From assembly GCF_002234535.1 (NCBI RefSeq), contig NZ_CP022521.1, positions 1,426,001 through 1,490,000 on the forward strand: a stretch of 64,000 nt of DNA. The letters run 5' to 3'. A model generated the notes under the pieces. It saw nothing but the letters and a program-made list of their open reading frames with translations. It was not told where the DNA came from and ran no database searches. Shown piece after piece: positions 56,599 to 61,313 of this stretch (its first letter is position 1; each line of letters starts with the position of its first letter). The DNA is from Actinoalloteichus hoggarensis (GTDB lineage Bacteria > Actinomycetota > Actinomycetes > Mycobacteriales > Pseudonocardiaceae). The position numbers and the translations under genes are program-made.

Positions 56599-57441
56599 TC
56601 AGCCGATAGACGTCGCCGTCCCCGAGACTCGCGATCGCCGGTCGCCGGGCGTCAGATCGAGGAGCAGTTCGCTCGGTCTTCCCAGGTCCTCGCCCTGCGT
56701 GATCCGCACCCGCAGCGGCTCTCGCACCCGCCCGAGGGCGTGCAGCAGCCCGCCGAAGGCCGCGGCGGCGGCTCCGGTGGCCGGGTCCTCCACGACGCCG
56801 CCGACCGGGAACGGATTCCTGGCGTGGAAGCGGGTCGGCGACTCCGCCCAGAACAGATTCGCCGTGGTCCAGTCCTGCTCGCGCATCAGCGCGGCGAGGC
56901 CGTCGACGTCGTAGTCCAGGTCGGCCAGCCGCCGCCTGCCGGCCGCCGCGAGCATCAGATGGCGGTTGCCGCCGAACGCCGTCGACGGGGGGAACGCGGG
57001 GTCCAGGTCCGCCGCCGACCACCCGAGCAGCTCCAGTGCCCGTGCCGTCTGTTCGGGGGCGAGCGGTTCCGCGAAGGTCGGGACGCTGGTGAGCGTCGCC
57101 CAGAGGTCGCCGTCCGCGCCGGGGCGGACGTCCACGGGGATCTCCCCGGCCCGGGTGTCGAAGGTCAGGGCGCCGGGCCCGATCGACTCGGCGAGTGCGA
57201 CGGCGGCGGCGATGGTCGCGTGGCCGCAGAAGGCGACCTCGGCGAGCGGGCTGAAGTAGCGGACGCCGTGTCGCCGATCGGTCCGGCGGGTCAGGAAGGC
57301 CGTCTCCGAGTAACCCACCTCGGCGGCGATCCGCAGCATGTCCTCCTCTGGGAGCCCGTCGGCGTCGAGGAGCACCCCGGCGGGATTCCCGCCGTCCGGC
57401 CGGCTGCTGAATGCGACGTAGCGCTGGATTCCGATGGTCAT
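56599..57441 (-). CDS. PhzF family isomerase/epimerase-like protein
   Basis: The 280-residue protein has the PhzF duplicated hot-dog-like fold. Motifs are RPDGGNPAGVLLD, the catalytic glutamate region VGYSETAFL, and FCGHATIAAA. PhzF itself isomerises a phenazine precursor, but most family members, including ones in no phenazine cluster, have unknown substrates. No phenazine genes surround it. ATG 57441 begins the conserved sequence. Confidence 0.88.
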   Translation of the reverse strand: MTIGIQRYVAFSSRPDGGNPAGVLLDADGLPEEDMLRIAAEVGYSETAFLTRRTDRRHGVRYFSPLAEVAFCGHATIAAAVALAESIGPGALTFDTRAGEIPVDVRPGADGDLWATLTSVPTFAEPLAPEQTARALELLGWSAADLDPAFPPSTAFGGNRHLMLAAAGRRRLADLDYDVDGLAALMREQDWTTANLFWAESPTRFHARNPFPVGGVVEDPATGAAAAAFGGLLHALGRVREPLRVRITQGEDLGRPSELLLDLTPGDRRSRVSGTATSIG

Positions 57442-57672
57442 GCGGCCATTCTGCGCACCAGTCGTCATCGAGTCCAACGATGAAACAAGATCTAGTGCAT
57501 CGGGCAATCCGATGGCATTGTCGGCGGGCGCACGCCCTCGGGCGCTCGCAGTCGCAGGCCGGTGTACGGCCGAGTGGGTGATCTCCGTGCGGCAGACGGC
57601 TCGAACAGGCCTGTGACGTGCGCCTCCCGCTCGGGCGCGACAGAGCCCGCCGGTCGTGCGATCGTCAGATTG

Positions 57673-57702
57673 TTGACAATAAATCGGTACCGGAGCTAGC
57701 TT
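57673..57702 (+). promoter_or_regulatory. promoter of the dehydrogenase gene with a palindrome
   Basis: A consensus TTGACA (57673-57678) and a TAGCTT -10 (57697-57702) are spaced by 18 bases. The -35 overlaps the palindrome ATTGTTGACAAT (57669-57680), the kind of site used by GntR-type regulators. Transcription should start near 57709, leaving a long leader of about 230 bases before the gene. Confidence 0.72.
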
Positions 57703-57741
57703 TCGGTGACGTCCCGGCGGCGGAGTGTGGAGGTGCCATCC

Positions 57742-57810
57742 ATGACGATCAGTGATGGTCTGCGTGCCTGGCTCTGCCTGCTGCGGGTCTTCTCACTCAG
57801 GCTGCGGTAG
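57742..57810 (+). CDS. putative Leu/Arg-rich leader peptide
   Basis: A 22-codon ORF (ATG 57742 to TAG 57808-57810) lies within the leader of the dehydrogenase mRNA. GGAGG stands 9 bases before its ATG. Six of its 22 codons are leucine and five are arginine, concentrated in the last 16 codons, along with one Trp, one Cys and one Phe. A GC-rich hairpin follows at 57834-57856 before the main gene at 57938. Enrichment for the amino acids handled by the downstream enzyme is the classic sign of translation-coupled attenuation. The peptide itself resembles nothing known to me. Confidence 0.6.
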   Translation: MTISDGLRAWLCLLRVFSLRLR

Positions 57811-57833
57811 TCCGTCTTCGACGCAGCGGCGTG

Positions 57834-57856
57834 CGGCGGCGCGGATCGCGCCGCCG
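57834..57856 (+). promoter_or_regulatory. candidate attenuator hairpin
   Basis: A perfect 10-bp stem CGGCGGCGCG/CGCGCCGCCG with a 3-base loop, 23 bases behind the stop of the leader ORF. Flanking GCGTGC and GCACGC can pair as an alternative outer stem. It could act as a terminator or as a ribosome-stalling-dependent switch; there is no T tract. Confidence 0.45.
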
Positions 57857-57937
57857 GTGCACGCATCCCTCATTCGGCCTCGGCCGGACGCCTACGGCGT
57901 TCGGCGGCTGCACGGCACACGGGAGGAGGTTCGGCTG

Positions 57938-59131
57938 GTGGCTCTCATCGACGACGACCCGCTGGTTCGGGTGACATGGACGGATCGGGAGACCGGGGTA
58001 CGCGGCTATCTGGTGGTGCACACGTTGGTGTCCGGCCTGGCCACCGGCGGCACCAGGATGCGCGCAGGCTGCACCCTGTCCGAGGTGGAAGACCTGGCCA
58101 GGGGCATGGCGATCAAGGCCGCGGTGTTCGACCTGCCGGTGGGCGGTGCGAAGGGCGGGATCGACTGCGACCCGAAGGACCCGAGGGCCAGGGGCGTGCT
58201 GAGCCGCTTCGTGCAGGCCATGCGCCCGTGGCTCGACGATCACTGGGTCACGGCCGAGGACCTCGGCGTCCCCCAACACCTGATCGACGAGGTGTTCGGC
58301 GAGGTCGGGCTCGACCAGTCCTATCACGCGGCGATCCGCCGGTCCGCCAATCCCGAGCTGACCCTCCGCCGCGTCCGGGCGGGTCTGAACTCGCCGGTGC
58401 CCGGCGGCTACCTGCTCGGCGACGTCGTGGGCGGCTACGGCGTCGCGCAGAGCTGCCTCGGCGTCGCGGCGGCGCGCGGCAGGCGCACCGCCGACACGAC
58501 GGTGGCCGTGCAGGGCGTCGGCACGATGGGCGGTGGCGCGGCCTGGTACCTGCACGAGGCGGGAATGCGGGTCGTGATGGTCGCCGACGCCGCGGGTGCG
58601 CTGTTCGACCCGGCGGGGCTGGACGTGCCCGCGCTGCTCGACGCCCGGGACCGCTACGGCGAGATCGACCGAGACCAGGTGCCCGCGGGGGTGGCCCGAC
58701 TGCCGAGGGAGGCCGTGCTCAGCGCCGAGGTCGATCTGTTGGTCCCGGCGGCGGTGTCCTACGCCATCACCGAGGAGACCGCCGACGCGGTGGCGGCTGG
58801 GGTCGTCGTGGAGGCGGCCAACGTCGCCACCACCCCCGCCGCCGAGCGCGGACTGGCCGAACGCGGCATCCCCGTCATGCCCGACTTCGTCGCCAACGCC
58901 GGTGCCGTGGCCTGGGCATGGTGGCTGCTGCTCGGCCGGGTGGACGCCGATCCGGCGTTGTCGTTCTCCGTCCTGCGTCAGGAGATGCTCGCCAGGATCG
59001 CCCCGCTGGTGGCCGACTGGGATCACGGCCGGGTACCGCCGAGGGTCACCGCGCTGGCGCTGGCGGATCTGCAGGTGGAGCGGCAGCGCGCCGCCGAGGC
59101 CGACGGCATGCGGTTGGTGACGATCCCGTGA
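57938..59131 (+). CDS. Glu/Leu/Phe/Val-type amino acid dehydrogenase
   Basis: The 397-residue NAD(P)-dependent enzyme catalyses reversible oxidative deamination of an amino acid. The catalytic lysine region [13 protein letters not shown] is followed by [14 protein letters not shown], the dinucleotide-binding [19 protein letters not shown] and the substrate-side [14 protein letters not shown] and [15 protein letters not shown]. It looks nearer to leucine/valine dehydrogenases than to hexameric glutamate dehydrogenase, but the substrate is not certain. GTG 57938 follows GGAGGAGG. The ectC gene starts 43 bases later, probably on the same transcript. Confidence 0.9.
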
Positions 59132-59174: not shown

Positions 59175-59597
59175 GTGATCGTGCGTTCCGTGGCCGAGAT
59201 CGAGGACGGCGACCGAGACGTCAAGACACCGAACTGGCGGAGCAAGCGCATCGTGCTGGCCAAGGAGGGCGTGGGCTTCTCGGTCCACGAGACCACGCTG
59301 TATCCCGGAACGGTGAACGACTTCTGGTACGCGAATCACATCGAGGCCGTCTTCGTGGTCGAAGGCGAGGGCGAGCTTCTGGACAAGGAGACCGGGATCG
59401 TTCACCAGCTCGGTCCGGGCACGCTCTATCTGCTCGACGGGCACGAACGCCACCAGCTCCGGCCGACGACGCTGATGCGCACGGTGTGCGTGTTCAACCC
59501 GCCGGTGACGGGCGCCGAGGTCCACGATGAGAACGGCGTCTACCCGCTGGTGGTCGAGCAGGTCCCGGCCGCCGAGGAGGCGGCGCCGACCGGCTGA
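59175..59597 (+). CDS. ectC: L-ectoine synthase, without ectA or ectB
   Basis: The 140-residue cupin closes N-gamma-acetyl-2,4-diaminobutyrate to ectoine. Starting at GTG 59175 (GGAGG ahead of it) the iron ligands known for EctC fall at the expected numbers, Glu57 (NHIEAVF), Tyr85 (GTLYLLD) and His93 (HERHQL), and the C-terminal [21 protein letters not shown] is conserved. ectA and ectB normally precede ectC in one operon, but here the neighbours are an amino acid dehydrogenase and an amidohydrolase. It is therefore an orphan ectC; it may work on externally supplied substrate, complement genes elsewhere, or have a related cyclase role. Confidence 0.92.
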
Positions 59598-60221: not shown

Positions 60222-61313
60222 ATGACGGTGACGAGTACGACGCGGCGCTCCGATCACGCGGCGGCGGCGCATCTGCGTGCCCGGCTGCTCCCGGAGGGCC
60301 GGGAGACCGATCTGTGGATCGTGGACGGGACGGTCAGCCGAGAGCCGGTCGACGGCGCCCGCACGATCGCGTCCGGCGGCTGGATGCTCCCGGCGCTCGT
60401 CGACGCGCACCTGCACATCGGCGTGGTCGAGGCCGGCGGACCCCTCGAACTCGACGCGCTCGACCGTGACCTGGATCGGTTGTCCCGAAGCGGGGTCGGC
60501 GCCGTGCGGGTGCTGGGCAGTCCGCGGCCGCTTCCCGCCGACGCACTGGCGAGGCCCGGCGGACCGGTCGTCCTCACGGCCGGGGTGCCGGTCGCCGCGC
60601 CCGAGCGCTTCATTCCCGGTTGGGGGCGGCGCGCCTCCGACATCGAGCTGGCCGCCGCCTGCGTCGCGGAGGCGCGCTTCGGCTGGAGCAAGATCATCGC
60701 CGACTGGTTCGACGACGCGGGAGGGTACGGGCCCGCCTTCTCGGCGTCGGCGCTGGCCGAGGCCGTGGCAGGCGTCCATGGACGGGGCGCCGGGGTGGCG
60801 GTGCACACGCAGAGCGCCGCGGCAGGCCGGGACGCCGTGGCGGCGGGCGCCGACACGATCGAACACGGGATGCACCTGCCGTGGTCCGTTCTGCCCGCTC
60901 TCGCGGCGCGGGGCGGGGCGCTCGTGCCGACCGGCTTCGTCTTCGCCACGTCGGCCGCCGAGATGACCGATGACGCGGTGCCGCCCGCCCTTCGGCACTG
61001 GTACGCGGAAGGACTCGCCGCCCACCCCGGCCTCGTCCGGCGTGCGTGGGAGGAGGGCGTCACCGTTCTCGCGGGCACCGACCTGCCGGTCGGCGCGCTC
61101 GTCGACGAGATCCGCTGGCTGATCGACGCCGGCCTGCCGGTCGAGGACGCCCTCGGCGCCGCCTCCTGGACCGCGCGAGAGTTCTTCGATCTCCCTCGGC
61201 TGCGCGACGGTGATCGTGCCGATCTCGTCTGGCTGGAGCACGATCCCCGAGCGGACGTCGAACTGCTGCGGACACCGCCGTTGGTGCTCCTCGGCGGGCA
61301 CGAGATCCGCTGA
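60222..61313 (+). CDS. metal-dependent amidohydrolase
   Basis: The 363-residue TIM-barrel enzyme of the amidohydrolase superfamily shows the metal-binding DAHLHIG (HxH), the His of AVHTQSAAAG, the His of IEHGMHLPW and the final Asp in LAGTDLP. The active-site lysine position reads WSKIIADW. It hydrolyses C-N or related bonds of an unknown small molecule, probably a cyclic amide. The arrangement resembles the imidazolonepropionase/dipeptidase side of the family. ATG 60222 follows GGGGAGAG. It may be transcribed separately from ectC, as the gap is 624 bases. Confidence 0.88.
   Translation: MTVTSTTRRSDHAAAAHLRARLLPEGRETDLWIVDGTVSREPVDGARTIASGGWMLPALVDAHLHIGVVEAGGPLELDALDRDLDRLSRSGVGAVRVLGSPRPLPADALARPGGPVVLTAGVPVAAPERFIPGWGRRASDIELAAACVAEARFGWSKIIADWFDDAGGYGPAFSASALAEAVAGVHGRGAGVAVHTQSAAAGRDAVAAGADTIEHGMHLPWSVLPALAARGGALVPTGFVFATSAAEMTDDAVPPALRHWYAEGLAAHPGLVRRAWEEGVTVLAGTDLPVGALVDEIRWLIDAGLPVEDALGAASWTAREFFDLPRLRDGDRADLVWLEHDPRADVELLRTPPLVLLGGHEIR

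Follow-up and report, generated by a model that had tools for sequence, protein, structure and literature searches.

A conserved leader peptide and a candidate GntR/FCD operator upstream of an amino acid dehydrogenase gene in Actinoalloteichus hoggarensis and its relatives

The DNA upstream of an amino acid dehydrogenase gene in Actinoalloteichus hoggarensis is most likely a conserved leader that regulates the dehydrogenase operon in cis at two levels. The first level would be a promoter whose -35 element lies inside a GntR/FCD-type operator, and the second a short, translated leader peptide. For this second level, it appears somewhat probable that the end of the leader peptide pauses the translating ribosome, likely through the nascent chain, and so resets two downstream hairpins, P1 and P3, together with the ribosome-binding site (RBS) of the dehydrogenase gene. 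Specifically, once at the conserved end of the leader ORF, the ribosome would pause in a manner dependent on the nascent peptide, perhaps helped by the conserved rare codons CGA and CAT. In this position it would alter the RNA ahead of it (P1, P3, and the RBS), such that the dehydrogenase gene is either transcribed further, past an early terminator, or has its RBS made available. This reading was built by comparing orthologous upstream regions, in which we find the ORF, constraint at the level of its protein sequence, a covarying P3, a tie between peptide, P3, and RBS, and the operator; from these we infer translation, pausing, the direction in which the pause acts, its effect on transcription or translation, and the signal. 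The natural guess for that signal is an amino acid related to the enzyme’s substrate.

The leader was studied within a 64,000-nucleotide stretch (hereafter, the window; positions 1,426,001 to 1,490,000 of contig NZ_CP022521.1) of a genome that consists of a single contig of 6.6 Mb. Its features, in window coordinates, are as follows.

57669..57680, + strand: candidate GntR/FCD operator, palindrome ATTGTTGACAAT, overlapping the -35 element
57673..57678, + strand: -35 element TTGACA, perfect, kept in the alignment of relatives
57697..57702, + strand: -10-like element TAGCTT, with an 18-nt spacer from the -35 element
57729..57733, + strand: Shine-Dalgarno sequence GGAGG of the leader ORF (GGAGGTG conserved in the alignment)
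57742..57810, + strand: leader ORF, MTISDGLRAWLCLLRVFSLRLR, 22 codons, ATG start and TAG stop, with a homologous ORF in relatives
57766..57792, + strand: leader-peptide core within the genus, AWLCLLRVF (six synonymous and zero nonsynonymous pairwise differences among three genomes)
57826..57864, + strand: hairpin P1, after the leader stop codon, containing a 10-bp stem at 57834-57856
57875..57910, + strand: hairpin P3, -24.8 kcal/mol, with 27 nt between its end and the dehydrogenase start codon
57922..57935, + strand: Shine-Dalgarno sequence GGAGGAGG of the dehydrogenase gene in its conserved context GGTTCGGC (36 of 37 intact leaders)
57938..59131, + strand: ELFV-family amino acid dehydrogenase, GTG start, 397 aa (Pfam PF00208, PF02812)
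59175..59597, + strand: ectC-like gene of the ectoine synthase family, GTG start, 140 aa (PF06339, NF009806)

The dehydrogenase belongs to the Glu/Leu/Phe/Val family, and its start was placed at the GTG at 57938 because orthologs align from that residue; a frame opening at 57752, which would give a longer dehydrogenase, is superfluous. Glutamate is doubtful as its substrate, since the lysine that we take to bind the side-chain carboxylate in glutamate dehydrogenases is replaced by threonine in the window’s predicted enzyme (GLATGGTRM). As the earlier note on this sequence had it, the dehydrogenase gene is followed by ectC, which begins 43 bases past the dehydrogenase stop. This ectC is a second copy; a canonical ectB-ectC-ectD cluster resides elsewhere in the genome (G000 C1:398979), and its EctC protein is 81% identical to the one encoded in the window. 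Among the genomes compared, ectC follows the dehydrogenase gene only in three genomes of the window’s genus, and in Saccharopolyspora the following gene is one for a cold-shock protein, recognised by its sequence. This confinement of the ectC linkage to a single genus indicates that the leader is a feature of the dehydrogenase gene and that ectC is a late addition, co-controlled with the dehydrogenase only in the window’s genus.

The 22-codon ORF behind GGAGG that the earlier note had described is present at 57742-57810, and the conservation in relatives that the note had proposed as a check was found as well. Upstream regions were gathered from 76 dehydrogenase orthologs in 200 genomes of the family and from 80 orthologs of named species, giving 156 regions in which some genomes are counted twice. 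A homologous leader ORF was found in 37 of these, spanning eight genus-level groups of the family, with homology scores of 64-120 against a maximum of 36 in a reversed-sequence control. The presence of a homologous ORF at the same place in 37 of 156 upstream regions, together with the strong purifying selection described below, places the leader ORF far beyond chance by these comparative measures. The carriers all come from one family and thus represent few independent events.

In these regions, the ORF occurs in three forms. The peptides of the window’s genus end in RAWLCLLRVFSLRLR, RAWLCLLRVFSFRL, or WAWLCLLRVFSSRLQ, and a second group carries MKIIDGHRAWLYWVRIYSLWARQR. In Saccharopolyspora, Halosaccharopolyspora, Halopolyspora, and allies, the peptide ends in RWLSSSSLWLRH plus zero or one residue, and RWLSSSSLWLRH directly before the stop is the usual ending of the related leader ORFs. 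Within the window’s genus the last codons vary (SLRLR, SFRL, and SSRLQ), so the stop-proximal register, fixed to within one terminal residue in the Saccharopolyspora-type peptides, is not kept there. A further, degenerate group (S. flava, S. dendranthemae, S. endophytica, S. ipomoeae, and S. rhizosphaerae) has an unrelated peptide ending that apparently arose through a small deletion and frameshift, and these five named Saccharopolyspora species retain the operator, the Shine-Dalgarno sequence, and the start codon. This clade (L105, L106, L108, L109, and L111) is a natural loss experiment, with a changed ending, no P3, and an altered RBS context. The 110 other regions, from Nocardia, Rhodococcus, Amycolatopsis, Pseudonocardia, and others, showed neither the leader ORF nor the operator. 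A degenerate DNA pattern searched in 397 genomes of the order gave seven matches, every one of them this leader, and a class-wide profile search with the peptide in 296 genomes returned only short partial matches at chance level.

It is the amino acid sequence of the leader core that selection appears to keep, as indicated by the ratio of nonsynonymous to synonymous pairwise differences over the 12-codon core of the Saccharopolyspora form (pS 0.37, pN 0.019, ratio 0.051) and by the exclusively synonymous change in AWLCLLRVF. For comparison, pN/pS is 0.71 in the ten codons before the core, and 1.5 and 5.1 in the out-of-frame readings. Both Trp codons of the core are fixed, and the Leu, Ser, and first Arg codons of RWLSSSSLWLRH change synonymously. 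The amino acids are thus conserved while the codons vary, as in a nascent-chain arrest peptide, and because most codons change in this way, dependence of the pause on the nascent peptide is probable. At the same time, all 19 cores keep the rare codons CGA (4.4% of Arg codons) and CAT (6.6% of His codons), and TCT (1% of Ser codons) occupies Ser5 of the core in 16 of 19, which suggests an extra constraint on the RNA or on the speed of the ribosome.

Downstream of the ORF, the 10-bp G+C stem recognised by the earlier note is present (57834-57843/57847-57856, with a GAT loop) and is retained in the window’s genus. A P1-type hairpin follows soon after the ORF stop in most leaders, its sequence differing between clades. 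The hairpin that persists across genera with compensatory changes is P3, not this stem. P3 is conserved in position, typically with some 25-40 nt between its end and the dehydrogenase start. Its mean folding energy over 22 intact leaders is -16.0 kcal/mol, and the hairpin reaches -12 kcal/mol or lower in 18 of the 22; dinucleotide shuffles average -9.1 kcal/mol, with 18% at or below -12, and five degenerate leaders average -3.3 kcal/mol. In nine sequences from several genera, six of its 11 pairs are altered on both sides. The covariation score of 0.364 compares with 0.234 in shuffled and at most 0.117 in slid versions, the contrast with the slid versions being inflated, as the segments were picked by eye and the structure derives from the same sequences. 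P3 itself was chosen after viewing the sequences.

The RBS of the dehydrogenase gene shows a corresponding distribution, with the GGTTCGGC context in 36 of 37 intact leaders, in none of nine degenerate ones, and in two of 110 genes that lack the leader. Across the compared leaders, then, the peptide ending, P3, and the RBS context are seen to be gained and lost together, and this joint coming and going gives the clearest hint of an action of the peptide in cis, on events at the RBS or immediately ahead of it. The outcome may be termination at P3, Rho-dependent termination, or translational gating. Ribosomes are unlikely to reinitiate directly at the dehydrogenase start, as the leader stop and the dehydrogenase start are separated by 95-243 nt, beyond the reinitiation distance of 10-11 bp (PMC4833913). 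Other scans of the RNA were less informative: the minimum free energy of the whole leader is unremarkable relative to shuffles (z = -0.74), and covariance models for Rfam leaders, riboswitches, and T-boxes gave only two chance matches, both outside the leader.

A simpler use of the same RNA, which we judge unlikely, though still worth weighing, is that the pyrimidine-rich run of Ser codons and its neighbours pair with the dehydrogenase Shine-Dalgarno sequence and its GGTTCGGC flank, and that translation of the ORF opens this structure with no sensing of any kind. The joint gain and loss of the ORF and the RBS context would follow from such pairing, as would the rare TCT at Ser5. Moreover, partition-function folding pairs the Shine-Dalgarno sequence with the ORF core over 5-10 of 13 nt in the main Saccharopolyspora clade and some others, and masking the ORF frees the Shine-Dalgarno sequence in several Saccharopolyspora leaders. 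Masking has no such effect in the window, however, and in other clades, the window included, the Shine-Dalgarno sequence has its pairing partner elsewhere. The best partner window is seldom the core, and the pairing is no stronger than that of synonymous recodings drawn at genomic codon usage. An anti-Shine-Dalgarno role of the Ser codon run is suggestive in one clade, with a negative recoding test.

If pausing driven by the nascent chain is the preferred reading, a bolder version of it may be considered, albeit at rather long odds. It is tempting to suggest that the RWLSSSSLWLRH-type peptides are a new actinomycete family of arrest peptides that sense a metabolite, and that a pause at the conserved CGA-CAT codons switches on a catabolic amino acid dehydrogenase. 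Here, the ribosome making the peptide would bind a free amino acid or a derivative of one, as with TnaC and tryptophanase. The leader shares with TnaC-type arrest peptides (PMC8429421, PMC3902921) a short leader peptide upstream of an enzyme of amino acid metabolism and conserved residues, including Trp, within the last dozen codons. The likeness is one of layout, with no sequence relation claimed; stalling and ligand are putative here, and the peptide ending, itself variable by one residue, is not retained in the window’s genus. Arrest peptides related to Sec and YidC, such as ApcA (PMC7897499, PMC10987492), likewise have a C-terminus conserved in amino acids and include members from the same phylum. 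These monitor protein export and carry RAPP-like motifs (PMC7897499, PMC10987492), whereas the present leader peptide has neither a RAPP-like motif nor an export-related gene downstream. A search of openly accessible full-text literature gave no match for the peptide motif and no leader peptide of an amino acid dehydrogenase.

The earlier note had interpreted the region as ribosome-mediated attenuation sensing charged tRNA-Leu or tRNA-Arg. Control of the dehydrogenase by a leader peptide is the part of that proposal that is well supported, by the conservation of the ORF; the sensing of these two tRNAs fares poorly, given that leaders outside the window’s genus do not preserve Leu and Arg codons as such. 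According to this classical scheme, which we regard as quite improbable, a shortage of charged tRNA-Leu or tRNA-Arg would stall the ribosome and prevent a terminator stem from forming. The leader does have a short ORF with a Shine-Dalgarno sequence and a G+C stem after it, and six of the 22 codons are Leu, as the note counted, with four for Arg (CGT, CGG, AGG, and CGG) rather than its five. Under the window’s own codon usage, and considering the leader ORF alone, the probability of so many Leu codons is P = 0.017, and of Leu plus Arg P = 0.002; this enrichment alone is weak evidence. Leu11, Leu13, Leu14, and Arg15 are also shared by all three genomes of the window’s genus. Conservation of the Leu codons, a further check that the note had named, did not hold, however: the three genomes of the genus have six, five, and four of them and relatives elsewhere two to four, most positions being unshared. 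Control codons for one amino acid do not form a conserved run, and the conserved core residues are R, W, L, S, and H, with no single one dominating, which speaks against a Leu or Arg counter.

A terminator scan of the leader found no U-tract terminator hairpin before the gene, and within the window neither the P1 nor the P3 tail is rich in U. Terminators of Actinobacteria may do without U-tracts, so this absence is not decisive. In thermodynamic folding with the ORF region masked, the pair probability of P3 was mostly unchanged and no antiterminator switch appeared; with P3 formed whether or not the ORF is masked, no textbook, mutually exclusive antiterminator emerges. The actinobacterial trp, ilvB, and leuS attenuators, by comparison, possess runs of regulatory codons and hairpins followed by poly-U (PMC1262725). 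The present leader resembles them in its short ORF behind a Shine-Dalgarno sequence, its G+C hairpins, its association with an amino acid metabolism gene, and its actinobacterial host, and differs from them in its mixed, conserved peptide, its lack of a U-tract, and a downstream gene encoding a dehydrogenase rather than a biosynthetic enzyme or tRNA synthetase. A parallel may also be drawn to the LEU element upstream of actinobacterial leuA, in which the codon run of the leader may pair with the Shine-Dalgarno sequence of the downstream gene (PMC1262725). In both cases codon identity alone does not explain regulation, but the present leader has no Rfam match, and its pairing between ORF and Shine-Dalgarno sequence occurs in only part of the leaders and fails the recoding test.

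That the ORF instead encodes a small trans-acting protein, its position in the leader being incidental, would account for the constraint at the protein level, but it is very unlikely, as conservation is confined to the C-terminal half, the ORF always lies directly upstream of the dehydrogenase gene with its pattern nowhere else in the 397 genomes of the order, and it is tied to P3 and the RBS context, both cis features.

The other level of control concerns initiation. Of the consensus promoter claimed in the earlier note, the perfect -35 element stands, while the -10 element, TAGCTT, is weak, and a strict sigma-70 scan called no promoter in the leader. The arrangement TTGACA-N18-TANCTT is preserved in the alignment of relatives carrying the palindrome. 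This palindrome, ATTGTTGACAAT, lies upstream of 35 of 37 orthologs with intact leaders, nine of nine with degenerate leaders, and none of the 110 others. The motif ATTGTYRACAAT is scarce, with 4-6 sites in each of seven genomes from five genera, and its reversed control has zero matches in the same seven. One site is the dehydrogenase leader, and three others in the window’s genome flank a GntR/FCD gene cluster, as do the corresponding sites examined in two Saccharopolyspora-type genomes. The cluster encodes the GntR/FCD regulator (single copy in 20 of 20 genomes tested), DUF3830, two EutA/arylmalonate-decarboxylase-like proteins, an amidase, a D-2-hydroxyacid dehydrogenase, a GABA-transaminase-like class-III aminotransferase, and a succinate-semialdehyde-dehydrogenase-like aldehyde dehydrogenase. 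The palindrome is thus common to the regulator’s own cluster and the dehydrogenase promoter, and since ATTGTYRACAAT sites are found at both, the dehydrogenase is probably a member of the GntR/FCD regulon, which looks catabolic. In openly accessible full-text literature, no paper mentioning DUF3830 was found, and the operator string had one match, in an unrelated paper on a LacI promoter. It is also very unlikely that the operator alone is in control and the ORF a chance occurrence in an ordinary 5' leader; the operator is indeed conserved more widely than the intact ORF, and is kept in the clade without the peptide ending, but the core pN/pS of 0.05 and the covarying P3 tied to the ORF argue against it.

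Regulatory leader peptides of actinomycetes are poorly catalogued, and most of those known for amino acids count one kind of codon. A mixed peptide conserved in its amino acids and tied to an RBS-proximal hairpin therefore makes a compact, testable example of pausing that depends on the peptide in an enzyme operon. In addition, the probable link to a defined GntR/FCD regulon limits where the substrate of this uncharacterised dehydrogenase need be sought.

Several observations on gene neighbourhoods may be added. The GntR/FCD cluster lies at G000 C1:2488000-2497900 (locus L181) in the window’s genome, with its regulator gene at C1:2493217-2493894 and three ATTGTYRACAAT sites among its genes, and is also seen at L210 and L211, being conserved across genera. 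Around the dehydrogenase-ectC pair, a PhzF-family gene (56599-57507, - strand) lies divergently upstream and an amidohydrolase gene (60222-61313, + strand) downstream, both also in a genus mate (L003). Finally, in some Saccharopolyspora, genes of the ornithine cyclodeaminase/mu-crystallin family, beta-lactamase-like genes, and amidohydrolase genes are found upstream of the dehydrogenase gene, among them the upstream genes at L092:1066-2010 (families scanned) and L107:1221-2171 (recognised by sequence).
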